Below are positions 5,814-29,570 of a stretch of 33,462 bases of DNA, piece by piece. The stretch lies in IMG/VR virus record IMGVR_UViG_3300031857_000752, positions 1 to 33,462 of that record. One strand, 5' to 3'. Each line of letters opens with the position of its first letter. Positions within the stretch are counted from its first letter, which is position 1. The DNA comes from a virus. Both the position numbers and the translations under genes were made by a program. The notes beneath the pieces are model-generated. The model was not told where the DNA came from. It did no database searches and saw only the letters and a program-made list of their open reading frames with translations.

Positions 5814-6235
5814 CTGGCAAGCTCGAAGTGGGGTGAATCGGTCTCACCCTTCTCGCGGGCCCGGCCATCCTGATCCCAGTCGCCACCCCAGCGGATCTTG
5901 ACGCCCAACTGCTTGGCGGCTTCCCGCATTGCCCGCGCGACCTTGTCAAACTGGCCAGGGTCTTTCCAGTCATACGGCTCCGGCAGCAGGTCGACGGCGC
6001 GGCCGAATCCGTCCGACTGCTTGAAGTGGTTGCTGTTCAGCGTCCACGTCACCTTCTTGCCCGGCTTGGTGCGCCCCTGCGCATACAACTCAGCCTGACG
6101 CTCCGGCGTGCGGACGCCCTCAATCACCATGAAGTCGGCCGGGCTGATCTCAATGGCCCGTTTGACCACCGCGACCATGTCGGGATGCACACCAACCAGA
6201 TTGCGCTTGGATCGGTCGGACAGACGGTACGGCAT
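5810..6235 (-). CDS. Endolysin, M15-family peptidoglycan peptidase
   Basis: The 141-residue protein (from ATG 6235; the stop of the upstream gene overlaps it as TGATG) resembles phage L-alanyl-D-glutamate/D-Ala-D-Ala peptidases of family M15. Visible features are FMVIEGVRTPERQAELYAQG, then NSNHFKQSDGFGRAVDL with a probable zinc ligand pair (His70, Asp82), and a C-terminal DSPHFEL with the third ligand (His136). SxH...AxD and PHxEL are the standard zinc motifs. It has no signal peptide, so export would depend on the holin. It would cut peptide cross-links of the host wall during lysis. Confidence 0.9.
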   Translation of the reverse strand: MPYRLSDRSKRNLVGVHPDMVAVVKRAIEISPADFMVIEGVRTPERQAELYAQGRTKPGKKVTWTLNSNHFKQSDGFGRAVDLLPEPYDWKDPGQFDKVARAMREAAKQLGVKIRWGGDWDQDGRAREKGETDSPHFELAR

Positions 6236-6474
6236 CACGCCACCCCCCGGATTTTCTCAATCGTCTTCAGGCCCAGCATCGCCGCGCAGAAGGTCAGCCA
6301 GGCGACCAGATAGCCCTCGGCCATGGGCTTCTCGATCGCGGGGCCAATGACGCCGGCATAGGCCAGACCCACCACGACAACCCAGCCGGCAGACGGCCGC
6401 CACAGGCGGTCAAACATCTGCCAGGCCCAGTGCGCCCGCATCGGATGATCCGGCAGTGCGGTGTGGTCGCTCAT
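6235..6474 (-). CDS. Holin-like protein with two membrane segments
   Basis: This 79-residue protein has a cytosolic-looking N-terminus (MSDHTALPDHPMRAHWAWQM), a hydrophobic segment at about residues 30-48 (GWVVVVGLAYAGVIG), a short polar turn, and a second segment at about 54-70 (YLVAWLTFCAAMLGL). It ends in the basic KTIEKIRGVA. Size, topology and position immediately upstream of the endolysin fit a class II-type holin that times lysis by forming membrane lesions. Both ends overlap neighbours (ATGA upstream, TGATG downstream). No residue proves holin function. Confidence 0.75.
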   Translation of the reverse strand: MSDHTALPDHPMRAHWAWQMFDRLWRPSAGWVVVVGLAYAGVIGPAIEKPMAEGYLVAWLTFCAAMLGLKTIEKIRGVA

Positions 6475-6704
6475 CGGGCACGCTCGATGCGGTCAAGCTG
6501 CTTCTGCATGGCCTCTGTCCGCTCATCCAGCCGGGCCAGTGTCCCATCCGCCAACGGCGCGACCGTGCGCTCGAGGGTCGAGACGCGCTGATTGATCCCG
6601 CCGCCCCAGAAGACCAGCGTCGCCGCCTGAGCAACCAGCGCGACGATCACGCCAATCATCGCCCAGTTCAACTTTCGCGCGTCGGAGTGCAGGGTCACAG
6701 GCAT
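6471..6704 (-). CDS. Single-span membrane protein with coiled coil, possible holin partner
   Basis: This 77-residue protein has one membrane segment at about residues 13-35 (WAMIGVIVALVAQAATLVFW). A C-terminal amphipathic coiled coil follows (about 40-77, with VSTLERTVAPLADGTLARLD). Short proteins of this type often sit beside phage holins and act as antiholins or accessory holins; here the stop overlaps the holin start by ATGA. The ATG at 6704 is preceded by an 80-nt gap after the upstream gene that carries a stop-adjacent decamer. The exact role is inferred from position and topology only. Confidence 0.65.
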   Translation of the reverse strand: MPVTLHSDARKLNWAMIGVIVALVAQAATLVFWGGGINQRVSTLERTVAPLADGTLARLDERTEAMQKQLDRIERAR

Positions 6705-6769
6705 GCCTCAATGCGGGTGGTCACGACGCGCGTTTGCATCCCCGCACATCGCCGCCTCGACCCCGCACC

Positions 6770-6779
6770 CTCAACGCAC
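6770..6779 (-). promoter_or_regulatory. Stop-adjacent decamer GTGCGTTGAG, copy 4
   Basis: It lies four bases after the TGA of the 84-residue gene and about 65 nt before the ATG at 6704. This is the longest distance to a start among the copies, so the constant spacing is to the stop codon and not to the start. Confidence 0.7.
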
Positions 6780-6783
6780 AAGG

Positions 6784-7038
6784 TCACGGCTCCACCGACA
6801 TCACGAACTCAATGGTGCCCGCCGGCAGGGCGACCCCACCAGGCGCGCCCGGCAGGATCTCGAGCTCCCCATCCCCGACAAACACCCACCGGTCGTTAAT
6901 CTTGGCCCCGTCGTCACCGACACCCATGACCCACAGCGATTGGCCAGCACTGACCTGATCCACCAGCATCGTCGGGTCGCCCACCAGCACGCGCTGAATA
7001 GCCCCCGTGGCCGTCTCGATAACCACCGCCCGGCTCAT
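6784..7038 (-). CDS. Small protein of unknown function, probably tail-associated
   Basis: This 84-residue protein (MSRAVVIETATGAIQRVLVG, later SLWVMGVGDDG and RWVFVGDGELEILPG) looks all-beta, with short repeating V-x-V strands and many Gly/Asp turns. It has no signal peptide or membrane segment. It overlaps the upstream 226-residue gene by ATGA and precedes the lysis genes. Small beta proteins next to fibre-like genes often support or decorate tail fibres. That is only a positional guess here. Confidence 0.6.
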   Translation of the reverse strand: MSRAVVIETATGAIQRVLVGDPTMLVDQVSAGQSLWVMGVGDDGAKINDRWVFVGDGELEILPGAPGGVALPAGTIEFVMSVEP

Positions 7039-7715
7039 CGCTTGCGCTCCGTCACACTCAAAAACCGCGACGACGCCGTGGCCGTGGAAAACGTGTTCAC
7101 CGAGACCTGGGTCGTAAGCTGGTAGAGGTAGCTCCCCGCCGCCGGCTGGTCCGTGACCACCACCGACTGCCAGCCAAAGGCAAAGTCGCCGCCCGTCGCC
7201 TCAACCACAAAGTCCCAGATCAGCGTGCCCTGCCGGTACAGCCGCAGCGTCGTGTCAATGCTCCCGCCCGCCGGGTGCCAGACGTTCAGGTAGAAACTGA
7301 AAAACACTTCCAGCTTCTCCCCCGTCGTCGTGAACGTCACCCCCTGGCAGTTCTGCTCCGCCAGGGTCAGCGTCTGCGATGCGTCCGTGAACGCCGACAG
7401 GCTGTTGGATGCGCCGGCCAACTGAATCGCCGCCGTCTGCACTACGGCTGTGTCTAACCCAGCAGCATTCGTGAGCTTCGACCCATCCGTCCGGTCCAGA
7501 AAGGGCTTCACATTGGTCGAGCCAACCTTCAGCCCCGTAAACGCAGCCGTCCCGTCCAGCACATCATCCACGCGATCGTCGACACCATCAGCCACAGCCT
7601 CCGCCGCCGCGGCCGCAACCTGGGCCAGTTCAGCCTTCTTCGCCGCACGGGCGATCAACTGCTCCGGCGTCAGCGGCGTGCGTGTCGTCGGTATGCCGCG
7701 GCGAACGGTGGTCAT
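7035..7715 (-). CDS. Putative virion or fibre-associated protein
   Basis: This 226-residue protein has an Ala-rich helical N-terminal part (about 18-50, LIARAAKKAELAQVAAAAAE). A Gly/Thr/Ser-rich beta domain follows (TTTGEKLEVFFSFYLNVWHP, then STTL-like strands and SYLYQLTTQVSVNT). The helix-then-beta-jelly-roll architecture resembles trimeric phage fibre or spike tips. It heads a coupled pair with the 84-residue gene. About 240 bp of C-rich non-coding sequence lies upstream and could hold a promoter, although I see no clear -10/-35 pair. No family is recognised. Confidence 0.62.
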   Translation of the reverse strand: MTTVRRGIPTTRTPLTPEQLIARAAKKAELAQVAAAAAEAVADGVDDRVDDVLDGTAAFTGLKVGSTNVKPFLDRTDGSKLTNAAGLDTAVVQTAAIQLAGASNSLSAFTDASQTLTLAEQNCQGVTFTTTGEKLEVFFSFYLNVWHPAGGSIDTTLRLYRQGTLIWDFVVEATGGDFAFGWQSVVVTDQPAAGSYLYQLTTQVSVNTFSTATASSRFLSVTERKR

Positions 7716-7952
7716 GCGGGGTTCCGGGGTTTTAGAGGGGTGAAAAAAATCTGCGAATGAATCTCAAAAGGTCCAAAGGGCCTGAATCTCGTGCTCAACA
7801 CCCCACGGGACCGTCGCCCCCCGCGTTTGCCCCCTCCCCCCCATACCCCCCGCCCAGTCGCAACCCGCCCGGCAACGCGGCCCGGCTGACAGGGGCCCGA
7901 TCCGAAACGGCCGCCCTGAATCGGATGCCCATTAACCGGGGCCGCTAGGGGT

Positions 7953-9844: not shown

Positions 9845-10390
9845 ATGACTGACACCGACGCGCGCGAGCTCGCATTGTTCGCCGAAAATGACGGCGATCT
9901 ATACCGCTCGCGCATCCTTCCGATCGTTGCCAACCTTGCTCGCAAGGTCGCGGGCGGCACCTATGACGCCGATAAGGCGTTGACGCTTTGGCGCTACGCT
10001 GCAGATGACGCCGCGCAACGCTACACCCGCGAGCACGGCACGCCGGGCCCTAACGGTTCCTTTGGCTGCTTTGATACCGCCACGCGCCAGGCCGTCGCCG
10101 TGATGCTGGCGGAGGGTTACGCCGAGCACATGGCGGAGGAAGCGCAAACCCTCCGACTCCGCAAACAATGGACCGTGGCCACTATCAAGGCCGCGCACGA
10201 GTCGGCGGGCGGCGTGTTTTTCGACCGCTCGCACATGAAAGCGAACGGCGAGACCCTCAAAAGCTTCACAGTCGAGATCCGGCACGGTTACGCATACTTG
10301 ATCCGCACGCGCGACCACGCCGCGTGGTTGTTCGACCCGGCAACGGGGCGACTCGATAAGTCCAACCACGGGAACGCCCATCACTCCTAA
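9845..10390 (+). CDS. Accessory protein of a type common on phages and plasmids, unknown function
   Basis: This 181-residue protein has two parts. Residues about 8-65 (LALFAENDGDLYRSRILPIV, then ANLARKVAGGTYDADKALTL and WRYAADDAAQRY) match a pattern I associate with small plasmid- and phage-borne proteins that carry the D-L-Y and G-x-Y-D-x-x-K-A-x-x-L-W motifs. The C-terminal part, FFDRSHMKANGETLKSFTVE, is typical of another short phage domain with F-F-x-R-x-x-M-K-x-x-G-x-T-L. The biochemical role is unknown. A ribosome-binding site and leader hairpin 2 precede the ATG. Confidence 0.72.
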   Translation: MTDTDARELALFAENDGDLYRSRILPIVANLARKVAGGTYDADKALTLWRYAADDAAQRYTREHGTPGPNGSFGCFDTATRQAVAVMLAEGYAEHMAEEAQTLRLRKQWTVATIKAAHESAGGVFFDRSHMKANGETLKSFTVEIRHGYAYLIRTRDHAAWLFDPATGRLDKSNHGNAHHS

Positions 10391-10402
10391 CCGCCCCGCT
10401 TT

Positions 10403-10427
10403 CCCGCCCTGTCACTGGGGCGGGTTT
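10403..10427 (+). terminator. Terminator-like hairpin
   Basis: CCCGCCC (10403-10409) pairs with GGGCGGG (10418-10424) around an 8-nt loop and is followed by TTT, 13 bp after the stop at 10390. The U-tract is short, so it may be partial or act as an mRNA 3' end. Confidence 0.5.
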
Positions 10428-10450
10428 GCCGGACGGTTAGAGTCCGCATT

Positions 10451-10463
10451 GCCCAGACTGGGC
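10451..10463 (+). promoter_or_regulatory. Leader hairpin 3 (GCCCA-GAC-TGGGC)
   Basis: A 5-bp stem with a 3-nt loop is followed by GCC and then by GAAAGGAA, 17 nt before ATG 10481. The stem differs from hairpin 2 by a paired change (G-C to A-T), so pairing is kept while the sequence changes. Confidence 0.65.
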
Positions 10464-10480
10464 GCCGAAAGGAACGAACG

Positions 10481-11197
10481 ATGAAAACGGATCCCCTGAA
10501 ACTATACCGCGACGCCGAATCCGGCGCCGGACAACCCGGCGCCCGCAAGCGGTGGCGCCTTGCCTGTCACGCTCTCGCCCCCCTTGTGACCGACTCCGCC
10601 GCCCTGCAGGCCTATGCGACGGCCGGCGAGACCCATAAGCGGGCCGACTGGCGAACGGCCGCTAAAGCTATGGCAAACGCCCTGCAGGGCATCGCACCCG
10701 CACCGGCGCCGGTGAAGCCGGAGCGCGCGCCTATGTCCCTTTGCGAATTCCTGTCACGGGCCGGCGGCCTTCGCGATACGGGCGGAGATCTGCAGGCAAT
10801 GGGCGCGCACCTATGGCACCGCCGGGCCGCATTCCGGCGCCGCCTGGTAACCGACTCCGGCCTTGCGCTCGACTATGCGGCCGATCTCGCTTGTGAGCGC
10901 GGCTATGTGTCCGGCTATGCCTCGCCGTCACTGGGCATGGGCGCTGATCGGGATGACGAATTGCACCGGCTGGGAGTCGGCGCCCTGCTAGAGGCGATTG
11001 AGCGCGAGCTTGCTGGATCGCCCTGCTATCCGGCCGAGTCGGACTGGGCGCCCTATGTCGAGCCGGAACCGGAGGATCATGAAGCCTTGTGGGCGGAAAC
11101 GTGGCCGGAGGATGCGCCGATCGTCGAGCCGGTCCGAACAATCCGATTCGTTGACGCCATGACCGGCGCTGAGTCGCATGTGCTGGAGGTGCGGTGA
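10481..11197 (+). CDS. Unknown protein of 238 residues
   Basis: It starts MKTDPLKLYRDAESGAGQPG with a strong ribosome-binding site (AAAGGAAC). The N-terminal third is helical and basic (ARKRWRLACHALAPL), then there is a Pro/Ala linker (APAPAPVKPERAP). The C-terminal half is helical and ends in an acidic segment (EPEPEDHEALWAETWPED) followed by a short strand region (TIRFVDAMTGAESHVLEV). I see no catalytic motif. CTGCAG occurs repeatedly as Leu-Gln codons. It heads a run of overlapping genes. Confidence 0.68.
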   Translation: MKTDPLKLYRDAESGAGQPGARKRWRLACHALAPLVTDSAALQAYATAGETHKRADWRTAAKAMANALQGIAPAPAPVKPERAPMSLCEFLSRAGGLRDTGGDLQAMGAHLWHRRAAFRRRLVTDSGLALDYAADLACERGYVSGYASPSLGMGADRDDELHRLGVGALLEAIERELAGSPCYPAESDWAPYVEPEPEDHEALWAETWPEDAPIVEPVRTIRFVDAMTGAESHVLEVR

Positions 11198-11406
11198 TGA
11201 TGACCGCTTCCGAATTTGACGCGGCGTGCCGGGGTAAGTCCCCGGCCTTCGCCTCCGCCTTGCTTGGCGCCGAGATTTCGCAGTCCAGGTGGGTTGCCGC
11301 CTTTGACCGATATGCGCGAACGCGGCGACGGTCTGACTTTGCCAAAGCCAAGGCGGCAAGCCTTGCGCGCGATTCCGCCCTTCGAATTTTGGCGGAGGCG
11401 GCGTGA
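11197..11406 (+). CDS. Small helical protein, unknown function
   Basis: The ATG at 11197 overlaps the preceding TGA by one base, and a second ATG follows directly. The 69-residue protein (MMTASEFDAACRGKSPAFAS, then AAFDRYARTRRRSDFAKAKA) is mostly helical and basic, ending RILAEAA. Its stop overlaps the next ATG. No family is recognised. The coupled overlaps at both ends are the main evidence for expression. Confidence 0.6.
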   Translation: MMTASEFDAACRGKSPAFASALLGAEISQSRWVAAFDRYARTRRRSDFAKAKAASLARDSALRILAEAA

Positions 11407-11831
11407 TGGCGACGTTCTTTCACACGTTCCGCGACGCCGACGGCATCCGCACCCGCTGGACGACGCTTGGCGACTTTCGCCGCATCCGTTCGGGAAGCCC
11501 AGGCACTCCCCGGTTTCTCATTGAGGCCGAAACGATCCCGGCGGCGGAGGCTATCGCGGCCGCGCTATGGACGGGGGGCGCGTTCTATTCGACCACGCGA
11601 GGCAAGGGGAGCGACGCCGTCGGGGTTGTGACAGGCATTGCCTCCGAATCCGTCACCCTAGCCGACGGCGCCGCGGATCAATCCCTGATTCCCGGCGTGG
11701 CGGCCGTCCCCTTAACCGCCCGCCAACTCGCACAAGAGCGCGCCCGGCGAGAGGCAAGGCGAGGGGCTGCAGGCTTGCCTTGTGGCGGCCTATGGGATGA
11801 AACGGCGATCAATCAGGGGAGTCTTTTCTAA
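11406..11831 (+). CDS. Unknown protein of 141 residues
   Basis: The protein from ATG 11406 reads MATFFHTFRDADGIRTRWTT, with IEAETIPAAEAIAAALWTGG and AFYSTTRGKGSDAVGVVTGI further on. The strands alternate with a helix in a small alpha/beta pattern, and the C-terminal quarter is basic (ARQLAQERARREARR). It ends in TAA one base into the next ATG (TAATG). There is no signal peptide. No family is recognised. Confidence 0.62.
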   Translation: MATFFHTFRDADGIRTRWTTLGDFRRIRSGSPGTPRFLIEAETIPAAEAIAAALWTGGAFYSTTRGKGSDAVGVVTGIASESVTLADGAADQSLIPGVAAVPLTARQLAQERARREARRGAAGLPCGGLWDETAINQGSLF

Positions 11832-20706: not shown

Positions 20707-21495
20707 TTACGCCGCCTCAGCGACGGGTTGATCGGCGGATGCCGATTGCGGGAAGAAGGGAGCGAGGGCCGAGAAGCCCTGGCCCTTCTGGTAGATGATG
20801 CGCGCGGGCATGTTGTAGCGGTTGCCGGCGGTGAACGCGGGCTTGCCCTCGGTGTAGATCCAGCGCGTGTCGCCACCGTCGGCACGGGCACGCTCGCCCT
20901 TGCCCTCGGTCTTGATGGTGACGTCCTTCTTGACCAGCAGGATGGCGTCGACCTCGCGCTTCAGCAGCGCCTCGGCCCGCTTGTGCAGGTCGATGTCGTA
21001 GCGGCTGTAGGACTGCGTCTCGGGATCATCAAAGCGGCTGATGATCGCGTGACCGACCAGCACGACGGCCATGCCGCGCTCGTTGCGCAGGTAGTTCAGG
21101 CCGTCGAGCACCTGGAGCCAGAGATTGTCCGCCTCGATGTAGCCCTTGCCGTAGCCGCCGCCCGCCAGCTCGATCGTCTTGACGTTCGAGTCGCGGCAGA
21201 CCTTGTCCCAGACCAGCTTCTGCAGGGCCGACACGCTGTCGAGCACGACAGTTTGGAAACTGTGCTCCTCAGTGGCAAGCGAAGTGATCGCCTCGATGAC
21301 CGACTCGAAACTGTCGAGCGAGCCGAAGCTGTCCAGCACCAGGTCGCCGCTCTCGCCGCGTTCCGTCTGCAGGAACACGGGCGCCGGGAACTCGGCGGCG
21401 AGCGTCGTCTTGCCCATCTTCTCGGGCCCATAGATCAGCAGCCGGGGCGGCTGATCGGCGCGGACCTTGCGCAGACTGGCCAACGAAATAGCCAT
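20707..21495 (-). CDS. Sak4-like RecA-fold ATPase (phage recombinase)
   Basis: The 262-residue protein from ATG 21495 has Walker A GPEKMGKTT (about 23-31), Walker B VVLDSVSALQ, and IYGPEKMGKTTLAAEF in the form common to phage AAA_24/Sak4 proteins. Further features are VLVGHAIISRFDDPE and a C-terminal part with GDTRWIYTEGKPAF. Sak4 proteins are single-domain RecA relatives that promote strand annealing with a single-strand-binding partner. The DUF669 gene directly downstream, and RusA and the Cas4-like nuclease in the same operon, fit this. The ATG overlaps the RusA stop. Confidence 0.85.
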   Translation of the reverse strand: MAISLASLRKVRADQPPRLLIYGPEKMGKTTLAAEFPAPVFLQTERGESGDLVLDSFGSLDSFESVIEAITSLATEEHSFQTVVLDSVSALQKLVWDKVCRDSNVKTIELAGGGYGKGYIEADNLWLQVLDGLNYLRNERGMAVVLVGHAIISRFDDPETQSYSRYDIDLHKRAEALLKREVDAILLVKKDVTIKTEGKGERARADGGDTRWIYTEGKPAFTAGNRYNMPARIIYQKGQGFSALAPFFPQSASADQPVAEAA

Positions 21496-22061
21496 CAAAC
21501 TTCTCCATCATCTTCCGGCGCATCCAGAAACCACCCGCCCGTTGCGCCGTCTGGCGAGGGGTGAAAATTGAGCGTCATCGGATCGGCCGGGCGCACCATG
21601 ATGCGGGCGCGCGGGGTGCGGTGATTGCCTTGCGGCATCCACGCCAGCACCAGGCCGGTCACGAAGCGGTCGTCGTCGATGACCTTGTGCAGAACCAGCA
21701 GGTCGATCGCGGCCTTGGCGGTGTTGTCCAGATCGGCGCGCAGGCTCGCGCGCTCCACACCCATGACAATGACCACCCTGCCCGGCACCCGGTCGCAGCC
21801 GTCGCGCGTCATCTGCTCGCGCACCGTCCAGCCAGCCTCAGCCAGCCATGCCTTGTATGCCGGCGTCTTGAAACGACCGCGGACACTGTTCGAGAACAGG
21901 TTGTTGACGCTGGGCGGCGCAGGAATGGTGAGCGTGGTGCAGGCGGAAGCGCCGGGGAGCGACGCCCCCGCCTGCTGGCGCACCCCAGACACGGAAACCG
22001 CGCCGGGATTATTGAGGGCCGCGTAGTCGGCGGCCTCTGCGATTGGGCAAGGACGGATCAC
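21495..22061 (-). CDS. RusA-family Holliday junction resolvase
   Basis: This 188-residue protein contains IPAPPSVNNLFSNSVRGRFK, the typical start of the RusA fold, then RADLDNTAKAAIDLL (about 108-122) and KVIDDDRFV (about 126-134). In RusA the catalytic acids are in D-x-D-N-x-x-K and D-D-x-x motifs, here Asp110, Asp112, Lys116 and Asp130/131. It would resolve recombination junctions produced during replication. The N-terminal extension of about 40 residues (MIRPCPIAEAADYAALNNPG) is longer than in most RusA proteins. The ATG overlaps the Cro stop. Confidence 0.87.
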   Translation of the reverse strand: MIRPCPIAEAADYAALNNPGAVSVSGVRQQAGASLPGASACTTLTIPAPPSVNNLFSNSVRGRFKTPAYKAWLAEAGWTVREQMTRDGCDRVPGRVVIVMGVERASLRADLDNTAKAAIDLLVLHKVIDDDRFVTGLVLAWMPQGNHRTPRARIMVRPADPMTLNFHPSPDGATGGWFLDAPEDDGEV

Positions 22062-22264
22062 AGCGACACCTGCTCAAGCACCGCAATGGTCTCGTCCGGC
22101 AGGTTGGCGATCGGTCCGATCTTGCGGCCGGTGGCACGATATATGCGTAGGGCGAGCTTTTGGTTCGGGACGCGACGACCGTTGGCAATGTCATAGGCAT
22201 AGCCGCCGCGAGCGACGCCGCTGTCCTGCAACTGCTTGGCAAATGAGGTGTCCGGGTTGTCCAT
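22058..22264 (-). CDS. Cro-like regulator
   Basis: The 68-residue protein from ATG 22264 (MDNPDTSFAKQLQDSGVARG, then YDIANGRRVPNQKLALRIYR) consists of a small helix-turn-helix, with G-Y-A-Y-D-I-A-N-G-R-R-V-P as the recognition region. It is divergent from the repressor gene with operator palindromes in between, and it is the first gene of the leftward early operon. This matches the lambda Cro position. The upstream in-frame ATG at 22324 would cross the operators and is rejected. Confidence 0.78.
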   Translation of the reverse strand: MDNPDTSFAKQLQDSGVARGGYAYDIANGRRVPNQKLALRIYRATGRKIGPIANLPDETIAVLEQVSL

Positions 22265-22274
22265 ATTTGAAACA

Positions 22275-22289
22275 TCGCAGAATGCGAGG
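22275..22289. promoter_or_regulatory. Operator O1 (TCGCA-GAA-TGCGA)
   Basis: A perfect 5-bp inverted repeat with a 3-bp centre lies 11 bp upstream of the cro ATG. The flanking GG makes it the exact complement of the site at 22733. Confidence 0.8.
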
Positions 22290-22307
22290 TTAACAGCAAG
22301 GCTTAAT

Positions 22308-22321
22308 CCTCGCATTTTCGA
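22308..22321. promoter_or_regulatory. Operator O2 (imperfect, CCTCGCATTTTCGA)
   Basis: The left half matches the operator consensus and the right half has two changes. It lies immediately before the repressor ATG at 22323, so binding would control the repressor promoter or its start. Confidence 0.6.
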
Positions 22322-22322
22322 C

Positions 22323-22676
22323 ATGGACGATCGCAGCCTGCGATTTACCAGTCAGCGCATGGCCAGATCACCTGCAAAGCCCGCCGCCAACCACCTCCGC
22401 GCATGGAGAGAGTTCCGACGCATGACCCAGGAACAGCTCGCCGATTCGATCGGCACCGCCGGGAATGTGATTGGCTTGCTGGAGAGTGGCGAGCGCGGAC
22501 TGTCCCATAAATGGCTGCTGAGACTGGCCCCGGTCCTTGGAACCACGCCCGGCTTCCTGCTGGATCATGACCCCTACGATATGGACACGTCATTTCTGGA
22601 CGCCGTCATGTCGGTGCCGACGGAAGATCGGGCACAGGTGTTGGCGATCATCGAGACCTTTAAGAAACGCGCGTGA
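22323..22676 (+). CDS. CI-like repressor (XRE helix-turn-helix)
   Basis: The 117-residue protein from ATG 22323 has a helix-turn-helix at about residues 24-80: LRAWREFRRMTQEQLADSIG, then TAGNVIGLLESGERGLSHKW. The R-M-T-Q-E-Q-L-A...G-L-L-E-S-G-E-R pattern is typical. A short C-terminal tail (VPTEDRAQVLAIIETFKKRA) is presumably for dimerisation. There is no LexA-like Ser/Lys protease domain, so induction would not use RecA-driven self-cleavage in the lambda manner. It has almost no 5' leader and may be translated leaderless. It is the lysogeny regulator opposite cro. Confidence 0.82.
   Translation: MDDRSLRFTSQRMARSPAKPAANHLRAWREFRRMTQEQLADSIGTAGNVIGLLESGERGLSHKWLLRLAPVLGTTPGFLLDHDPYDMDTSFLDAVMSVPTEDRAQVLAIIETFKKRA
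22331..22343. promoter_or_regulatory. Operator O3, inside the repressor gene (TCGCA-GCC-TGCGA)
   Basis: A perfect half-site pair lies at codons 3 to 7 of the repressor. It suggests autoregulation, or extension of the repressor complex into its own coding start. Confidence 0.65.
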
Positions 22677-22707
22677 GTCACGGCCTGCGAGGACGGCTGA
22701 AATAATA

Positions 22708-22722
22708 CCTCGCATTTTGCGC
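22708..22722. promoter_or_regulatory. Operator O4 (CCTCGCATTTTGCGC)
   Basis: One mismatch from the consensus. It is 32 bp after the repressor stop and 57 bp before the start of the accessory operon. Confidence 0.7.
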
Positions 22723-22732
22723 TAGACAGCAT

Positions 22733-22748
22733 CCTCGCATTCTGCGAG
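22733..22748. promoter_or_regulatory. Operator O5 (CTCGCA-TTC-TGCGAG)
   Basis: The longest palindrome of the set, with 6-bp arms, ending 30 bp before the GTG at 22779. Together with O4 it probably puts the accessory/integration operon under repressor control. Confidence 0.8.
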
Positions 22749-22778
22749 CCTTCCCTCCTCAACACAGGAGGGCACAGC

Positions 22779-23063
22779 GTGTCGCACCCAAACCAAATCG
22801 CACTGCCTGTCGCAGTGTCGCGCTGGATCGACCAGTCGCAGAACCTGCCGGACGCGGTCGCCACCGCGCGTCTCAGCGAGAAGCTGGAGTTCATCACCGA
22901 GGCGATCGACGTGCTGGCGTCTGACACGGATGACGTGCCGGTCGAGATCCGCGGCCTGTCCGTCATCGACCTGATGTCAGCGAGCGCGAGCCTGGCTGTC
23001 GAGATCGGCACGCGCCGCCGGCACGCCGAGATCGGCGAGCGGATGCTGGAGCGTGCAGCGTGA
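22779..23063 (+). CDS. Unknown helical protein, first of the accessory operon
   Basis: The 94-residue protein starts at GTG 22779 with a strong ribosome-binding site (AGGAGG, about 10 nt upstream). It reads MSHPNQIALPVAVSRWIDQS, then KLEFITEAIDVLASDTDDVP, LMSASASLAVEIGTRRRHAE and IGERMLERAA. It is helical throughout with no cysteines. Operators O4/O5 precede it, so it is probably repressed in the lysogen. No family is recognised. Confidence 0.68.
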   Translation: MSHPNQIALPVAVSRWIDQSQNLPDAVATARLSEKLEFITEAIDVLASDTDDVPVEIRGLSVIDLMSASASLAVEIGTRRRHAEIGERMLERAA

Positions 23064-23311
23064 ACGCGACAAAAGCATGGGCGTTTTACGACGCCGTCAC
23101 CGAACGCGCCCGGCACGGCTGCGAGAAATGCAGCGCAGACGAGTTCTACCCGAACGCCGAGGCGTTCGAGGAGACCGGCGAGATCCTGTGCAACGACTGC
23201 TGGGATGACGAGCAGGCGAAAGCCGAGCAGGCCCGGATGCAGCGCGAGGAGGCCGACGACTTCCGCCGCGCCAACCCGCTAGAGCCGGACTACCGGAGGC
23301 TGGACCAATGA
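23060..23311 (+). CDS. Small zinc-binding-like protein
   Basis: This 83-residue protein starts at GTG 23060 within the previous stop (GTGA). It carries a C-x-x-C pair (HGCEKCSADEF) and a second pair (EILCNDCWDDE) about 22 residues apart, the arrangement of a zinc ribbon or LIM-like site. A charged C-terminal helix follows (AKAEQARMQREEADDFRRAN). Possible roles are protein or DNA contacts. It overlaps the next gene by ATGA. Confidence 0.65.
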   Translation: MNATKAWAFYDAVTERARHGCEKCSADEFYPNAEAFEETGEILCNDCWDDEQAKAEQARMQREEADDFRRANPLEPDYRRLDQ

Positions 23312-23505
23312 TCGACATGCAAGATCCCCGCGACCACCGCCGCGTCGCGGCCATGACCACCGACCAGGCCAGCCACCGTGGCTGGGACTTCCGCCCCTCC
23401 GACAAGCCGCCGCTTTGGTTTCGTGCCGTGGCCGAGGTGCTTCGTCCTCGCAGCCTCATCATCTTGCTGGCCCTCGCTGGCGTTATCAGCCTGTGGTGGA
23501 TGTGA
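23308..23505 (+). CDS. Small C-tail-anchored membrane protein
   Basis: This 65-residue protein has a hydrophilic N-terminal region (MIDMQDPRDHRRVAAMTTDQ, then WDFRPSDKPPLWFRAVAEV). A C-terminal membrane segment follows (about 47-64, LIILLALAGVISLWWM) with the stop straight after. It is coupled to its neighbours by ATGA and TGATG overlaps. Tail-anchored phage proteins sometimes modify the host membrane, but no function can be assigned. Confidence 0.62.
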   Translation: MIDMQDPRDHRRVAAMTTDQASHRGWDFRPSDKPPLWFRAVAEVLRPRSLIILLALAGVISLWWM

Positions 23506-23699
23506 TGGGGGACGCCGCAGACGACGCTTACGACGCCGCTATGTGGGAGGATGACGAACCTGAGATTTGCGGCACTTGCCCAGATCACGTCCCCGCTATT
23601 ATCCCCCCAGAAGGATGGGTTTGCCCTGAGTGCGACGCAGACTGGTCGATGGCTGATGATGACGAAGCTATCCGAAAAGCCACAGGAGAAGCATCATGA
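23505..23699 (+). CDS. Small acidic zinc-ribbon protein
   Basis: The 64-residue protein from ATG 23505 reads MGDAADDAYDAAMWEDDEPE, then ICGTCPDHVPAIIPPEGWVC and PECDADWSMADDDEAIRKAT, ending GEAS. Two C-x-x-C pairs (CGTC, CPEC) form a likely zinc knuckle. It is strongly acidic elsewhere. Its C-terminal codons and the next start lie in a repeated DNA segment shared with the junction at 25010-25033. Confidence 0.65.
   Translation: MGDAADDAYDAAMWEDDEPEICGTCPDHVPAIIPPEGWVCPECDADWSMADDDEAIRKATGEAS
23676..23699 (+). repeat. 24-bp gene-junction repeat, first copy
   Basis: Twenty-four bases, from AAAGCCACAGG to GCATCATGA, are identical to 25010-25033. The segment encodes the last residues KATGEAS of one gene, contains AGGAGAAG as ribosome-binding site, and ends in the overlapping stop/start of the next gene. 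Confidence 0.85.
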
Positions 23700-23893
23700 A
23701 GCCGACGGTTACGTTGTCGCCGACGCCGCTCCCCACCGTTCGAGTTTACGACCGGACCCGCGATGAGTTTGCAATGGCCGCATTGACGGGGCTTTTGGCG
23801 GCAAACGTGGATTATGACAGGCAACCCGAGCAAGCTGCGAAGCGCGCCTACACCCTCGCAGACGCCATGCTTAAGCAGAGAGAAGCATCATGA
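23696..23893 (+). CDS. Small protein of 65 residues, unknown function
   Basis: It reads MKPTVTLSPTPLPTVRVYDR, then EFAMAALTGLLAANVDYDRQ, and ends KQREAS. The N-terminal part is Pro/Thr-rich and the rest is two helices. It begins in an ATGA overlap inside a 24-bp repeat and ends in the GAAGCATCATGA junction that leads into the next gene. No family is recognised. Confidence 0.62.
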   Translation: MKPTVTLSPTPLPTVRVYDRTRDEFAMAALTGLLAANVDYDRQPEQAAKRAYTLADAMLKQREAS

Positions 23894-23923
23894 CCCCCGA
23901 CGAACTCCCCGCTGATATGGAGG
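23883..23923 (+). repeat. 41-bp gene-junction repeat, first copy
   Basis: Forty-one bases beginning AAGCATCATGACCCCCGA are identical to 25229-25269. They cover the end of one gene and the codons for the N-terminal MTPDELPADME of the next, which both following genes share. Confidence 0.88.
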
Positions 23924-24552
23924 CCCGCACCCCTGCACCAGAGGGGGAGGCTTGGCGGCACGTCTCGCAAGAGGAAATGGCGCAGGCTGCAAAGTTCGCA
24001 TCCAACAACCTCGCATCCCCTGTCGTTCCTGCACCAGAGGGGGTGTTTGTTAGCGAGACTTGCGAAGGTGAAGTCTGCTGGTGCGGAAAGCCTGCGGTCC
24101 GAAAGGTCGGGGAGGAGTTTGCGTATGACGAGCCGAACCCTAACCGCCACAACCTCACTCGGTATATCTGCGCCCACCACTTCGCTGAACTCATGGGGCC
24201 AGCGGGGGCGCGGTCTGTCGGCATTGCCCCTGTCGTTCCGGTAGGGGTGTCGGAAACGGATGTTTTGTCTGTCCTCACCGCCGAACGGGATGAACTAAAA
24301 GCGGCGCTGGAATGGGCCGACCGCATGGCCAAATCCTCCCTAGACGCCCTTTCCGCAACCCTTAACCAGCCTGTCGTTCCGGTAGGGATGAGCAGGGAGG
24401 AGATTGCGCGGGCCGTTCACCGAGGGCGGTTCCCCGAGGATCGTAAGCCCACGCCCTTTGAGGCTGAAGACGCATCGGGCACGACCTACTGTTTTCGCAT
24501 TGCCGACGCCATCATCGCAGCCCTTCGCCCTACCGATACAGGGAGGGAGTGA
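23890..24552 (+). CDS. Modular accessory protein with repeated PVVP linkers
   Basis: This 220-residue protein begins MTPDELPADMEARTPAPEGE, a start shared with the gene at 25236. Segments are separated by repeated linkers: PVVPAPEGV, PVVPVGVS and PVVPVGMS, with near-identical DNA (CCTGTCGTTCC at 24019, 24229 and 24370). Between them lie a Cys-rich piece (CEGEVCWCGKPA...CAHHF), a helical piece (DELKAALEWADRMAK) and a C-terminal piece (EIARAVHRGRFPEDRKPTPF). It looks like a protein built from joined modules. Function unknown. Confidence 0.65.
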   Translation: MTPDELPADMEARTPAPEGEAWRHVSQEEMAQAAKFASNNLASPVVPAPEGVFVSETCEGEVCWCGKPAVRKVGEEFAYDEPNPNRHNLTRYICAHHFAELMGPAGARSVGIAPVVPVGVSETDVLSVLTAERDELKAALEWADRMAKSSLDALSATLNQPVVPVGMSREEIARAVHRGRFPEDRKPTPFEAEDASGTTYCFRIADAIIAALRPTDTGRE

Positions 24553-24746
24553 TGAGCCTCTACGACGACGAAAACGAACACTTGCTCGACGCTATCCAGC
24601 AAGACGCCGAAGACGCAGCAATCCACGCGTGGGGGCCGCTAGGCGCTCCGACGCACAGGTCATGCCCGCACCCAGAAGGGTCAGAAGAAGCCGAGGCATG
24701 GTGGATAGCTTTTCACAGAGGATACGCACGGGAGCACGGCAAATGA
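24552..24746 (+). CDS. Small acidic protein of 64 residues
   Basis: It is read from ATG 24552 (TGATG overlap with the previous gene): MSLYDDENEHLLDAIQQDAE, then DAAIHAWGPLGAPTHRSC, and EAWWIAFHRGYAREHGK. An acidic N-terminus is followed by a helix with aromatic residues. The region EAEAWWIAFHRGYAREHG resembles the end of several short phage proteins, but I know no function. Its stop overlaps the next ATG. Confidence 0.62.
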   Translation: MSLYDDENEHLLDAIQQDAEDAAIHAWGPLGAPTHRSCPHPEGSEEAEAWWIAFHRGYAREHGK

Positions 24747-25033
24747 CCACCCCTGACATAGCCGGTCTGTGCGAGAGGCTGCGGGCTGCGCTGGAAGGCG
24801 TCACGCCGGGGCCTTGGGAAGCCACGTTAGGCGCTTCCGGCATGACCGCCGTTGAGGCTGACAACGGCACCATTGTCGCCAGCTACGTTTCGGAGGCCGA
24901 CGCCCGCCTTATCGCATCCGCTCCTGATCTTTTGGAGGCGCTGATCGAGGTCGTAGCTATTGCCGACCGCAAGACGGATGCCTTTGACCGCGCCCGCGCC
25001 GCTATCGCCAAAGCCACAGGAGAAGCATCATGA
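24743..25033 (+). CDS. Ead/Ea22-like phage protein
   Basis: The 96-residue protein from ATG 24743 reads MTTPDIAGLCERLRAALEGV, TPGPWEATLGASG, then DARLIASAPDLLEALIEVVA and ends KATGEAS. The PGPW and A-x-L-I-A-x-A-P-D-L-L-E-A-L motifs are typical of phage Ead/Ea22-type early-region proteins, which have no established role. Its 3' end is the second copy of the 24-bp junction repeat and therefore has the same C-terminal KATGEAS as the unrelated zinc-ribbon protein. Confidence 0.75.
   Translation: MTTPDIAGLCERLRAALEGVTPGPWEATLGASGMTAVEADNGTIVASYVSEADARLIASAPDLLEALIEVVAIADRKTDAFDRARAAIAKATGEAS
25010..25033 (+). repeat. 24-bp gene-junction repeat, second copy
   Basis: Identical to 23676-23699. It again spans the end of one gene, a ribosome-binding site and the next start codon. 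Confidence 0.85.
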
Positions 25034-25239
25034 CCTCGCGCACCGAATACACCACGTCGGGTGCCAGCATGACGTTGACGCCGGGCCAGACCTTTTTCAT
25101 GGACGGAAAGCGCCATGTGGTCCGCGAGGTTTTCGCGCACACGTTCACGACCGACCCCGACACTCGCAACCATCAGACGCGGCGGGTTGATCGCGCGAAA
25201 GCCCGCGCCGCCGCCAAGTTCAAGAGGAAAGCATCATGA
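25030..25239 (+). CDS. Small basic protein of 69 residues, unknown function
   Basis: It reads MTSRTEYTTSGASMTLTPGQ, then TFFMDGKRHVVREVFAHTFT, and ends RAAAKFKRKAS. The first half looks like a small beta domain and the C-terminal 20 residues are strongly basic, which would suit nucleic-acid contact. It is bounded on both sides by the repeated stop/start junctions. No family is recognised. Confidence 0.62.
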   Translation: MTSRTEYTTSGASMTLTPGQTFFMDGKRHVVREVFAHTFTTDPDTRNHQTRRVDRAKARAAAKFKRKAS

Positions 25240-25269
25240 CCCCCGACGAACTCCCCGCTGATATGGAGG
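25229..25269 (+). repeat. 41-bp gene-junction repeat, second copy
   Basis: Identical to 23883-23923, after which the two genes diverge completely. Confidence 0.88.
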
Positions 25270-25538
25270 GGCGGCTGCAATGGGCGCTTTTGTCTTTCGG
25301 TACCGGGCAAGGTCATATCGCCGTATCGGCACCCGACCTCCGCGCCCTCCTGAAAGCATACCAAGAGCAGCGCCGGGCTTTGGAGCGGATTGAGCAAGGG
25401 CTGCCAGAAATACGCGCGGTCCACCGCTTTAGCGAGGCCCGGCTGATCGCCCGAGCCGCCCTTACAGGAGAAGACACAGCCACGCTTAGTCTTTCCGGCG
25501 AAACTCAAACCGACGCCCGCACAAGGGGGGACGGATGA
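25236..25538 (+). CDS. Unknown protein sharing the MTPDELPADME start
   Basis: This 100-residue protein begins with the same 11 residues as the gene at 23890 but then continues GRLQWALLSFGTGQGHIAVS, a helical region (DLRALLKAYQEQRRALERIE) and a polar Thr-rich tail. A-P-D-L-R-A-L-L resembles the Ea22-type A-P-D-L-L-E-A-L motif, so a distant relation is possible. It ends in an overlap with the excisionase-like gene. Confidence 0.65.
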   Translation: MTPDELPADMEGRLQWALLSFGTGQGHIAVSAPDLRALLKAYQEQRRALERIEQGLPEIRAVHRFSEARLIARAALTGEDTATLSLSGETQTDARTRGDG

Positions 25539-25894
25539 GCCTCCCGCCTCGCCTTCACCTGCCCCAGGTGCTCGCCCTCGCCGGCTACAGCCGGTCCACA
25601 CTCCGCTCGCGCCAACGCACTGGCGTCATGCCCATGCCGATCGACCGCGGCGGCCGGGGCGGGATCTATGACCGAGACGCGGTTCTCAAAGCCCTAGGGA
25701 TGGCGCAGGATGAAACCCCCGACCCCGCCGATGCATGGACATTTAAGCCCGATGCCTACCGTGACGCTCTCGCTGGGCAGATACGTCGTCCTCAAGAAGC
25801 GCGCCGACGGCACGAGCCGGGCGTACTTTCAGGTGCCGGCACGCCTGCGCCCCTCCGGCTGGTCTCCGGCCATACCGCTGCCTCGCACGGCTGA
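25535..25894 (+). CDS. Excisionase/AlpA-like small helix-turn-helix protein
   Basis: This 119-residue protein starts MSLPPRLHLPQVLALAGYSR, then STLRSRQRTGVMPMPIDRGG and GIYDRDAVLKALGM. The winged helix-turn-helix of the AlpA/Xis type is seen in the pattern L-P-x-V-L-x-x-A-G-Y-S-x-S-T-L and G-I-Y-D-R-D-A-V. It sits directly upstream of the integrase, as recombination directionality factors often do. After about residue 70 the frame overlaps the integrase gene by about 140 bp; that tail (QEARRRHEPGVLSGAG) looks like a frame shadow, so the true protein may be shorter or the overlap real. Confidence 0.65.
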   Translation: MSLPPRLHLPQVLALAGYSRSTLRSRQRTGVMPMPIDRGGRGGIYDRDAVLKALGMAQDETPDPADAWTFKPDAYRDALAGQIRRPQEARRRHEPGVLSGAGTPAPLRLVSGHTAASHG

Positions 25895-26909
25895 ACGGCG
25901 CGGCACGCTGGACGCGGCTGAGGTCGCTGCCATCAAGAAAGACGCCGAGGCCCTGTACGGTGCCCTCATGCAGGCGAAGACGGGCGACACCGTCCGACCA
26001 CCTGAGCGCAGCCTGTCGACGCTTGTGGACGCCCTGCAGCGGTCTCCTGAGTGGGCGGCGCTGTCGGACAAGACGCGCGTCGGCTATGAGACCGGGTTCA
26101 AGAAGATACTGGCATGGTCGAAATCGTGCGGTCACCCGGACCCGACCGCCCTGCCCCGCTCCGCCATCCTGCAGTTCCTGTCCAGCTTTGATGCCGGCAC
26201 GGAACCGGACGGCACGGCGCGTGTCGCGCGGCACACCGCCAAGAAGCACACCGCCGCCGTGCTGCGCCTCGTGCTTGAGCAAGCGATCAACAAGGGCTGG
26301 CGCACGGATAACCCGGCGCGCGGCATCCGCATCAAGGTGCCGAAGACCAAGGCGACGATCTGGGAACAGAAGGACGTCGACTGCTATGTGAAGGCCGCGC
26401 GCGATACGGGCGTGCCCTCGATCGCCCTGATCATCCTGCTCGAATGGGAGATCGGGCAGCGCCTGACCGACGTGCGCGCGTTCCGGCCGGGCGCCGAGTA
26501 CGATGCCGAGCGCGGCGTCTTCTCGTTCCGCCAGTCCAAGACCGACGAGCCGGTGTCGATCGAGGTTTCGATGGGGCTGCGGGCGATGCTGGCTGAGGCC
26601 GGTGACGGCCACCTGTTCCTGTTCCGCAACGACCGAACCGGCAAGGCATACACCGAGAACCGTTTGTCCAAGACCTTCGCCTGGGTGCGGATCGCTGCGG
26701 TCAAGGCGGGCGGCCGTCCGCTGATCCTGAAGCAGCTCCGGCATTCCTGCATCGTGCAGTTGGCGCGGGCTGGCTGCACTGTGCCCGAGATCGCGGCCAT
26801 CACAGGCCATGCGCTGACGAGCGTGAACTCGATCCTGAGCGTGTATTTGCCCCGCGATACGGCGGTGGCGAGGGCGGCGCAGGTGAAGAGGGGAATCGTC
26901 TCGGCGTGA
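25752..26909 (+). CDS. int: Tyrosine-type site-specific integrase
   Basis: The 385-residue protein is read from ATG 25752 (MPTVTLSLGRYVVLKKRADG); an in-frame ATG at 25710 would add 14 unlikely residues. It has the expected arm/core-binding N-terminal part and a catalytic domain with Arg236 (EIGQRLTD), Lys263 (RQSKTDEP), Arg320 in LKQLRHSC, His343 in AAITGHALTS and the nucleophile Tyr355 in SVYLPRD. The first position of the H-x-x-R box is Lys, a known variant. The gene ends 83 bp before the tRNA-derived attachment core, with arm-type repeats next to it. It should catalyse attP x attB recombination at a tRNA-Pro gene. Confidence 0.92.
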   Translation: MPTVTLSLGRYVVLKKRADGTSRAYFQVPARLRPSGWSPAIPLPRTAERRGTLDAAEVAAIKKDAEALYGALMQAKTGDTVRPPERSLSTLVDALQRSPEWAALSDKTRVGYETGFKKILAWSKSCGHPDPTALPRSAILQFLSSFDAGTEPDGTARVARHTAKKHTAAVLRLVLEQAINKGWRTDNPARGIRIKVPKTKATIWEQKDVDCYVKAARDTGVPSIALIILLEWEIGQRLTDVRAFRPGAEYDAERGVFSFRQSKTDEPVSIEVSMGLRAMLAEAGDGHLFLFRNDRTGKAYTENRLSKTFAWVRIAAVKAGGRPLILKQLRHSCIVQLARAGCTVPEIAAITGHALTSVNSILSVYLPRDTAVARAAQVKRGIVSA

Positions 26910-26925: not shown

Positions 26926-27131
26926 AGTTGGACGCCCGCCCCTTCAAGAGTTGGACGCCTGGGCCCGCCAGACGCGCAACCCCTTGAAAAGATGGTCGGA
27001 GTGAGAGGATTCGAACCTCCGACCCTCTGGTCCCAAACCAGATTATCCCCGTTGAAATCGTTGAGGTCCGTCCAACGGTTAGCGGTTTGTTCGCGGTCCA
27101 CAAATCAAGGGGTTAGCACCCCAGTTGGACG
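26926..27131. other. attP region with tRNA-derived core and arm-type repeats
   Basis: The core is the 3' half of tRNA-Pro (26993-27042). Around it AGTTGGACG occurs at 26927, 26949 and 27123, with its inverted form CGTCCAAC at 27069. The inverted pair AACCCCTTGA (26978) and TCAAGGGGTT (27105) encloses the core. These are the elements expected of integrase arm sites around a crossover core. Phage genes lie on both sides, so this is attP and not a prophage end. Confidence 0.78.
26993..27042 (-). other. 3' half of tRNA-Pro (TGG), attachment core
   Basis: Read on the minus strand this begins at the anticodon stem TCTGG, loop TTTGGGA (anticodon TGG) and stem CCAGA, and continues with the T-arm GGAGG-TTCGAAT-CCTC to the 3' end CACTCCGACCA. 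No 5' half (CGGAGTG plus D-arm) lies upstream, so it is not a working tRNA but the segment that restores the host tRNA gene after integration. Confidence 0.88.
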
Positions 27132-27194: not shown

Positions 27195-29570
27195 TTATTC
27201 CGGCGAAGTGGTGTTAAGCAGACCGTCAGCGAGAAAGCTGACGCCACCGAGCGTTATTAGGCCCGAGCCGTTGACATAGGTAATCGAAACGTCGCCGGTG
27301 TTTTCGATATTTAGCTGCCCGACGACGGGCGTTCCCGAGTTAACGGAAAACAAGTTCTGGCGATGCGTTTTTGCGGGTCGGAAACCAACAGGCAGCGTAA
27401 AGAGAACCGTCGCGTTTGTTGACGTTCCGTCCTTTATGACGCCGGACAATGTTACAATGCCGTCCGCGCCCTTGATGTATTGCGCCGGTTCGTCAGCGGC
27501 TGAGTTGTTGACCCAACTATTCAACAGTGTTGGGTATTTGATGACCCCCGCCGTGCCAACGCCCTCATCCCACACCTTGAGACTGATGCCCGCATTGAAC
27601 GTGCAAGGCTTGATGATTGTGTTTGTTGCGGACGACGTAACATGGATGCCGACCATGCCCGACGCAGTGACAGTGATCGAGCCGGTCGCCGCCGAAGACG
27701 CCGACAGGTTATAGGTGCCGGTCCCGCCCGTGCCAGTGCCAAGGCTGGTAATGATCGTTCCTGCCGTGATGCCGGTGCCAGAGATAGCCCGACCCGGAAA
27801 CAGCTTGCCGCTCGTCACGGCGGTGACGGTTAGAACGGTGCCAGTCACCGAGCCGGTAACAACCGCGTTGGCCACGCCGCCAAGGCAGGTCACGCTGTCC
27901 ACAACGACGCCTTGCGAAGCGCCGATACGGATGCACTTTTCAGCGTCAGACGAACCAAAAGCAGAGACAAGGCCGTTCTGGATTAGGCCGCTGTAGATCG
28001 TTGCGGTAATGCCAGAAATGTTAACCAGCGCGGCGTTGTTTTGCGCCGTTGTCCCTGCGTTGTAGTTCTCGCAATTGTTCCCGATAAACCGGAAACGATT
28101 GCCGCTCGACAGCTTGAATGATCCACCATCGTTGGTGATATTGCACCGCTCAACGGCAAAGCACGACGCCCCCGTAACATGGGTAACATCAACACCAATC
28201 AAAGTGCCAGTTGAGGTAACTTCAACAACCTGATTACTGTCGCCTGTGTTTTCTAGTTTGATGCCGCCGCCGCCGATGGCAAGATTACGGAACACCGAGC
28301 AATACATACCGCCATTTACGTTGTTTCCGGCGTCGTTAAGGTGCCAAATGCCGTAACTGGTGCCTGGGGCAATCCGCATATTTTCTACAATCAGTCGCGC
28401 CAGATTTTGGCCCGCCGTTGTAGTCAGAAAAAGAATACCCTCCCCCCACGTTCCCGCAGCGCCGCTGTTTGGATTGCCAATCGAGAACCCACTGAGAACG
28501 GTTCCCTCATGGTCCGTTGTCGTGTTTGGGCTGATAAGCAAAGGGCGATCAGTGCCAGAAAACGACATGGGCCGAAGCGCAGAATACAGCGCCCCATCCC
28601 CTCGAATGCTGACAGCTTTGGTAAAAGCAACGCCCGCGCCACTGTCCGCTGACATTTGATAGGTGCCAATGGGTATGTGAACGCGTCCGCCCGTAAATGG
28701 CATCCCAGCGTTGATGCTACGAAGCGCGGGCCCGTCTGCGGTGCTGTCATCGCCTACCGCGCCAAAGTCTTTGACTGATACAACGTCGCTCCATTTGGAG
28801 TTGCCCGTGCGGTTTACCGCGCCGGTCAGCGTTGAAAGATACCCTACCGTTGTTGAAGCAATCTGCCCCAGCGCCGCCAGAAACGCGCTGTTGTTCGCCG
28901 TGGCCAGCAGAGACCGGGCAAACGAGGTCAGGTCGGCCATTGCCCACGTTCCCGCGCCAGTCGCGTAGGGAACCTTGTCAGCAGCGGATGTCAGGGCGGC
29001 GATGGCGGTCAGGTCGGCGTCAAGCGGCTGGCGCGAGGCCAAAATGGCGTTGGCTGTGACCACATCAGCCCCGGTCTGAACGCGGTCCAACCCCGTCTGC
29101 ACTCGATCTGCAGCCGCCGCAGAAGCAGATGCAGCCGCCGCAACAGCCGCGGCAGCCGTGTCAGTCACGTCGTCAGCGAAATCGTCCAGCGCGGTCTCGG
29201 CCTCACCCAGCCGGCGGCTGTGATCCTGGTCCTGCGCCGTCAGTCGATTCAGCGCCTGGTCGACGGATTGAACGGGCACGCTGCTCGCCGGCGCGAAATT
29301 GCTCGTGCGGGCCGGGGCGACGTTGCGCTCGATCCGCACGGTGACATCGTCGACAGCCGTGTTCAGCGTGACCGTGCCGCCGTCGTAGCCGCCACCCTCA
29401 AGCAGCGTGCCCGTGAAGGTGAAGGCCGACTGGTTCAGCGCGACGTCGTCGACGAGCACGGTCAGATCCGCCTTGGCGAACAGGCTGAACGTGATCGGGA
29501 ATACGGTGGTCGACGTGACGACAGTGAACGTCGCGAACGTCTGTTCGTCGGGGATCGTCAGTCTGGCCAT
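27195..29570 (-). CDS. Tail spike/fibre with T7-fibre-like head and right-handed beta-helix
   Basis: The 791-residue protein begins [20 protein letters not shown], with [20 protein letters not shown] and [20 protein letters not shown]. This resembles the virion-binding domain of T7-type tail fibres (about 1-120). An Ala-rich helical stalk follows (about 125-180), then a beta-helix starting at [20 protein letters not shown] (about 262), as in pectate-lyase-type spikes that bind or cut surface polysaccharide. A module with [20 protein letters not shown] is inserted near 600. The beta-helix part has visibly lower GC than its neighbours, which is usual for exchanged receptor-binding domains. Confidence 0.87.

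Follow-up and report, generated by a model that had tools for sequence, protein, structure and literature searches.

How can a phage repressor that lacks a cleavable domain silence two early operons that lead away from its gene on opposite sides? This question is raised by a virus record 33,462 bases long, here called the window (the whole stretch of DNA that was analysed), in which a gene for a short helix-turn-helix (HTH) protein is flanked by palindromes of the form TCGCA-N3-TGCGA. An earlier note, made from the sequence alone, had proposed that a single repressor governs a cro gene, its own gene and an accessory-integrase transcript through five operators. Comparison with related loci makes it highly probable that this is a lambda-like immunity region of a temperate Caulobacterales phage, in which one repressor acts through two operator clusters on both early promoters. 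The host group is presumed from relatives of the locus that lie in Caulobacterales genomes.

Results

The repressor

The cI-like repressor gene (22359–22676, plus strand) encodes an XRE/HTH protein with two C-terminal helices. Its DNA-binding domain is of the HTH_3/HTH_31 type, with a Pfam match to HTH_31 at E 6.6e-7 (30 bits versus a cut-off of 27) and the 434 repressor among the profile matches (E 0.002). The protein had been read as 117 residues long, from a start at 22323. We set that start aside in favour of the ATG at 22359, which probably gives a protein of 105 aa, because the methionine at this position is conserved across relatives (the first invariant residue in five repressors compared and nearly invariant in eleven) and because the related locus L011, unlike the window, has no ATG just upstream of its third operator. 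With this start, the site at 22331 would lie in front of the gene and not inside it.

Pfam finds HTH families only in the 105–117 aa product, and an AF2 model (36-sequence input, pLDDT 76.7, replacing an 11-sequence fold with pLDDT 57.7) consists of the HTH and two helices. Both observations support the previous reading that the protein has no LexA/S24 cleavage domain. Foldseek rows for the model include ClgR and SinR (among the top rows) and the DNA-binding domains of P22 c2 and 434. Since the domain that serves cooperativity and cleavage in lambda is absent, both cooperativity and induction must have another basis. Induction through an antirepressor, as suggested before, is not supported: no antirepressor family was recognized among the window proteins scanned, and in a search of 768 window reading frames for a SinI-like copy of the C-terminal helices the repressor alone scored.

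Operator sites in the window

Palindromic sites do occur both around the repressor start and beyond the repressor gene, as the earlier note had it. Exact matches to TCGCA-N3-TGCGA are found at 22275–22287 (OR1, TCGCAGAATGCGA), at 22331–22343 upstream of the repressor start (OR3, TCGCAGCCTGCGA) and at 22735–22747 (OL1, TCGCATTCTGCGA), and a copy with one mismatch is found at 22710–22722 (OL2, TCGCATTTTGCGC). The distal pair had been placed at 22708 and 22733, positions that include two leading bases (CC); the sites themselves begin at 22710 and 22735. The remaining site (OR2, CCTCGCA, 22308–22314), 35 bp from OR1, is a half-site and not a full operator. Its left half is conserved and retained even in L004, L008, L009 and L010, where the right half seen in the window is not kept, and a count of five operators holds if this half-site is included and not otherwise. 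Fuller palindromes occupy the OR2 position in L060 and L061.

The number of motif copies in the window is by itself unremarkable and not significant: five matches with at most one mismatch were counted, where shuffled sequences average 2.63 and 9 in 100 of them reach five. Four of these five are packed into 473 bp. What stands above chance is this clustering, together with the recurrence of the layout in relatives that use other half-sites. With no excess of the motif across the window, the argument depends on where the sites lie and how well they are conserved. The lone one-mismatch copy elsewhere (5273–5285) lies within an exonuclease gene and is probably a chance match. A sixth, weaker match with two mismatches (22678–22690) was rejected as an operator, being degraded in L009.

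The palindromes might instead be chance occurrences or sites for a host regulator such as LexA or CtrA, and the absence of over-representation of one-mismatch copies would fit this. We find it barely conceivable, given the clustering and the co-variation in other lineages described below. In Alphaproteobacteria, GTTC-N7-GTTC is a LexA-like box and TTAA-N7-TTAA a CtrA-like box. The window holds a single copy of the former, at 28485 in a tail gene and at chance level, and none of the latter was found.

Conservation in close relatives

In IMG/VR, relatives of the repressor are encoded at eleven loci. L001–L009, which are 95–100% identical, keep all the sites, apart from the weak match at 22678, which is degraded in L009. 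The more divergent L010 (repressor 78%) keeps those at 22275, 22331 (shifted, with one mismatch), 22710 and 22735, along with the left half at 22308. OR1 is retained in all of L001–L010 with a single variable spacer base, OL1 is found in the same ten loci, and OL2 is identical in L010 though its flanks diverge. OR1 and OL1 have counterparts in other lineages, those of OR1 with altered half-sites. The third site abuts the repressor start in relatives; its right half is seen in most, and often that half alone is kept. In the distal intergenic stretch, the two sites with two bases on each side agree in 31 of 34 alignment columns, and the remainder in 47 of 68. The proximal stretch, which aligns badly around an indel, agrees in 27 of 41 site columns versus 24 of 56 others.

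Flanking genes

On the left, a small gene of 67 aa (22058–22261, minus strand) diverges from the repressor gene and is the first of the leftward early operon, its ATG lying 9 bp past the operator. This cro-like gene has an HTH-like product without a Pfam or PHROG match. In 19 of 24 loci, an ORF of 45 or more codons has its ATG 8–11 bp past the proximal operator; by eye, the majority of the products look like small HTH proteins, and the cro-like genes differ between lineages. The spacing between ATG and site 1 suggests that the cro-like message may be leaderless. In L120, L123 and L169, the divergent gene is not HTH-like and has a Cys-rich motif, which we take to resemble the cell-cycle regulator GcrA. 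The leftward genes that follow in the window encode a RusA-like resolvase and a Sak4-like ATPase (20707–22061, minus strand; Pfam/PHROG matches), and further leftward come SSB-like, Cas4-type exonuclease, HNH/endonuclease VII-like, helicase and primase genes.

On the right, the first gene begins with a GTG at 22779 behind a Shine-Dalgarno sequence, AGGAGGG (22766–22772, plus strand), in a stretch kept in relatives. It opens a run of tightly packed small accessory ORFs (22779–25894, plus strand) with almost no family matches, the last of which (25535–25894) may, judged by eye, encode an excisionase. The run ends in a tyrosine integrase gene (25710–26909, plus strand; phrog_1 integrase, 9.7e-20). 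The integrase gene is also present in L001–L004 and L010, so that in these loci and in the window the second early operon leads to an integrase; no homologue of the window integrase was found in the available DNA of other lineages. Beyond it, a stretch resembling the 3′ end of tRNA-Pro (26989–27043, plus strand; about 84–94% identity to annotated tRNA-Pro genes of phage records) is a candidate attP core, where ARAGORN predicts no complete tRNA.

Elsewhere in the window, several rightward ORFs without a PHROG match interrupt an otherwise leftward stretch (9845–11831), a tail spike match lies at 27195–29570, and a protein of 1275 aa encoded at 29615–33442 matches an internal virion protein family, here in an integrase-bearing phage.

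Promoter modules

Sites on both sides of the repressor gene are associated with a -35-like element. That of the predicted leftward (cro) promoter reads CTTGCT (22295–22300, minus strand), and that of the predicted rightward early promoter reads CTAGAC (22722–22727, plus strand), with CTTG or CTAG in the same register in relatives. TTG stands at the expected place in 18 of 20 deduplicated proximal modules and 11 of 15 distal ones, against a background of 0.095. Read outward, both early promoters share a common plan of site 2, about 10 bp, CTTGac/gc, 7 bp and site 1; in the distal module of the window, which has CTAGAC, site 2 is 10 bp nearer. Sigma-70 consensus scans gave no promoter near the sites, no -10 element was definable, and the -35-like element is accordingly known by comparison only.

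Range of the repressor family

Repressor homologues were found in 46 of the 390 genomes in the family of G001 (E ≤ 1e-10), and in 13 of 398 genomes of an order sample and 3 of 385 of a class sample (stricter E ≤ 1e-15). The repressor family thus appears restricted in range. Among 50,697 isolated-phage records no close relative was found, the best match having 40% identity over 67% of the query. We found no account of this family in the literature on Caulobacter and Brevundimonas temperate-phage repressors and operators or on repressor-operator co-variation, as far as it is openly accessible, subscription journals being thinly covered. In genome G021, a second and shorter repressor homologue lies beside the first (L129, 1264–1488 on the scan strand).

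The occurrence of homologues in so many genomes of one family, several of them without a distal pair, and fold and sequence neighbours that include HigA antitoxins, ClgR and SinR could point to an antitoxin-type or host-type XRE autoregulator, with the distal pair belonging to a wider regulon. We regard this as very improbable here, since the gene is divergent from a cro-like gene, has recombination genes on one side and an integrase on the other, has no recognized toxin gene beside it, and is flanked by sites on promoter-like modules that face away on both sides. A phage repressor remains the preferred reading.

Recurrence of the layout and co-variation with the recognition helix

The arrangement recurs in distant relatives. 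A palindrome search without a preset motif, run with control sequences, found the same geometry in L011, L055, L056–L058 and L060, mostly with other half-sites. The palindromes of L061 came from a relaxed template, and further loci from Caulobacterales genomes. On the proximal side, the first site precedes the small cro-like gene, the second is some 35 bp away and the third sits beside the repressor start. On the distal side, a pair 25 or 34–36 bp apart (25 bp in the window and L010, 34–36 bp elsewhere) follows the end of the repressor gene after 10 bp to 2.7 kb. The distance between OR and OL varies between loci. By lineage the half-sites are TCGCA, TTGCA (L011), TCACA (L060) or CTACA (L157), and proximal and distal sites change together.

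In a formal scan, the half-site was taken from a palindrome 55–105 bp upstream of the repressor start, and a pair with the same half-site, 24–26 or 33–36 bp apart, was sought within 4 kb downstream. The near-copies L001–L009 and L058 and the weakest homology matches were left out, and the longer stretches L155–L170 were used instead of shorter loci from the same genomes. Of the 48 loci scanned, 33 with a proximal seed were informative and 15 had no seed. A distal pair was found in 18 of the 48; shuffling the downstream stretch 100 times for each locus produced none. One locus that passed, L154, was dropped as too distant (repressor score 60, different half-site), and L061 and L160 were added by hand to give a distal module alignment of 19 loci. 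In these 19, the same half-site flanks the repressor gene on both sides and tracks the repressor helix. The layout is absent from 29 of the 48 loci, some of which are distant or chromosomal homologues or have short downstream DNA.

The agreement between the two sides is quantitative. Over 15 deduplicated loci, the OR1 and OL1 of one locus differ by 0.55 of six half-site bases versus 2.20 for different loci; 0 of 100,000 re-pairings were as good, and a locus's own proximal site was the closest or tied in 10 of the 15. Half-site distance also follows helix-3 distance beyond general protein distance (Mantel test, partial r 0.75, a value reached in none of 5000 permutations; 21 of 25 loci, four near-copies having been dropped, a comparison from which shared ancestry is not fully removed). 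The six best single repressor positions are 33, 37, 39, 40 and 41, all in helix 3, and 58. At least four half-site changes fall on the tree, in which L011 (TTGCA) groups with L055 and L167 (both TCGCA, the latter on a long branch) with support 96/94. L134 has TCGCA sites with a helix like that of TTGCA lineages, differing at residue 40. A rule by which Asn at helix position 36 specifies TC and Ser or Ala specifies TT fits most rows and is broken by L134; no code is claimed.

These data bear on the possibility that the distal pair serves mainly the cro-like protein or another phage regulator, the cI-like protein acting at the proximal sites only. According to the accessible text of PMC11077077, Cro and CI share sites in lambda, and the cro-like genes examined here vary between lineages too. 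Nevertheless, we consider this unlikely, as the proximal and distal sites share their half-site within each locus and the half-sites track the recognition helix of the repressor, the protein for which (and not for the cro-like proteins) co-variation was computed. The co-varying operators lend strong support to the original proposal that a single repressor would govern cro, itself and the accessory-integrase operon.

Genes between the repressor and the distal pair

As little as 10 bp separates the repressor gene from the distal pair in L056, and as much as 2.7 kb in L158 and L159. In L159 this interval carries a candidate defence pair, PDC-M41A/B (6016–7657; PADLOC, DUF5131; E 6e-72 and 3e-104), with the second gene on the opposite strand. 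The interval of L157 holds a SocA-Panacea gene with a small gene next to it (6869–7923), both in the direction of the repressor and possibly a toxin-antitoxin pair. SNase and GNAT genes lie in the L158 interval and a gene for a TerB/WYL protein in that of L161. Among ten proteins chosen from interval ORFs and scanned, those of L061, L162 and L164 matched no Pfam family. The ATG of the 378-aa ORF of L061 (4290–5426), whose product looks membrane-like by eye, overlaps the repressor stop, and the distal pair is found only beyond this ORF, about 1.15 kb on. The lambda rexAB genes adjoin cI (PMC11077077), and in a prophage of P. putida a RexAB-type system is described that lies downstream of a gene of CI type (PMC12894663), as far as the accessible text of each goes. 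By analogy of position, the cargo between cI and OL would be a parallel to lambda rexAB.

Discussion

From this arrangement we infer that the repressor binds both clusters, that both modules act as promoters, that the repressor gene is autoregulated and that the cro-like protein has a part in the switch. The left cluster (OR1, the OR2 half-site and OR3) would cover the leftward promoter, predicted to drive the cro-like gene and the recombination and replication genes, as well as the promoter of the repressor gene itself. The right cluster (OL2 and OL1) would cover the rightward promoter for the accessory genes and the integrase. Repressor bound at OR1/OR2 would block the former promoter and repressor at OL1/OL2 the latter, and with both early promoters shut the prophage would be silent, while occupancy of OR3 would tune repressor synthesis.

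A broader proposition, which we hold to be about evenly balanced, is that a single lineage of small repressors has given rise to four or more immunity specificities in temperate phages of Caulobacterales, the whole operator set being rewritten each time along with a few helix-3 residues, and that the cI-OL interval is a slot for cargo expressed in lysogeny, including candidate phage defence genes. If true, these loci would form a recognition-code series provided by nature, in a switch whose repressor is not cleavable. The series of operators and recognition helices could provide a ready set for tests of how residues read bases and for the prediction of cross-immunity, and the interval would be a defined place to seek lysogeny-expressed defence genes in Caulobacterales prophages.

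The lambda plan, outlined in PMC11077077 as far as its text is accessible, is matched in the order cro-OR-cI-OL-early operon-int. Operator clusters flank the repressor gene on both sides, each placed on an early promoter that points away from it, with a cro-like gene first on one side and an integrase on the other, and relatives may carry extra genes between cI and OL. The differences lie in the repressor of about 105 aa without the C-terminal domain for cooperativity and RecA-stimulated cleavage, in an OL with two clear sites where lambda has three operators per cluster, in a spacing of 25 or about 35 bp within the site pairs, and in operator sequences and a repressor of another lineage. In lambda the C-terminal domain serves cooperativity, looping and SOS induction, so that all three must be explained differently here.

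The accessible text on phage 933W reports five operators with no OL3 and a repressor that is non-cooperative (PMC3317979). The window likewise has three OR sites (OR2 being a half-site) and two OL sites, and its repressor may also be non-cooperative, a guess from the missing domain; 933W, however, is a lambdoid phage. Short XRE regulators of the SinR, ClgR and HigA type share the HTH and the short helical C-terminus, but they are host or antitoxin regulators in other gene contexts, and no SinI-like antagonist was found in the window. In TP901-1 and phi13, the accessible accounts describe a compact CI-MOR switch with two divergent regulators, MOR opposing CI through contact (PMC11149083, PMC7250872). 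The window also has a compact phage switch with two divergent regulators, between which such a contact would be hypothetical, and by analogy CI-MOR is a possible model for SOS-independent induction. The overall plan of the window switch is the one already known from lambda, in an altered version that occurs in a phage family outside the lambdoids and has a repressor without a cleavable domain.
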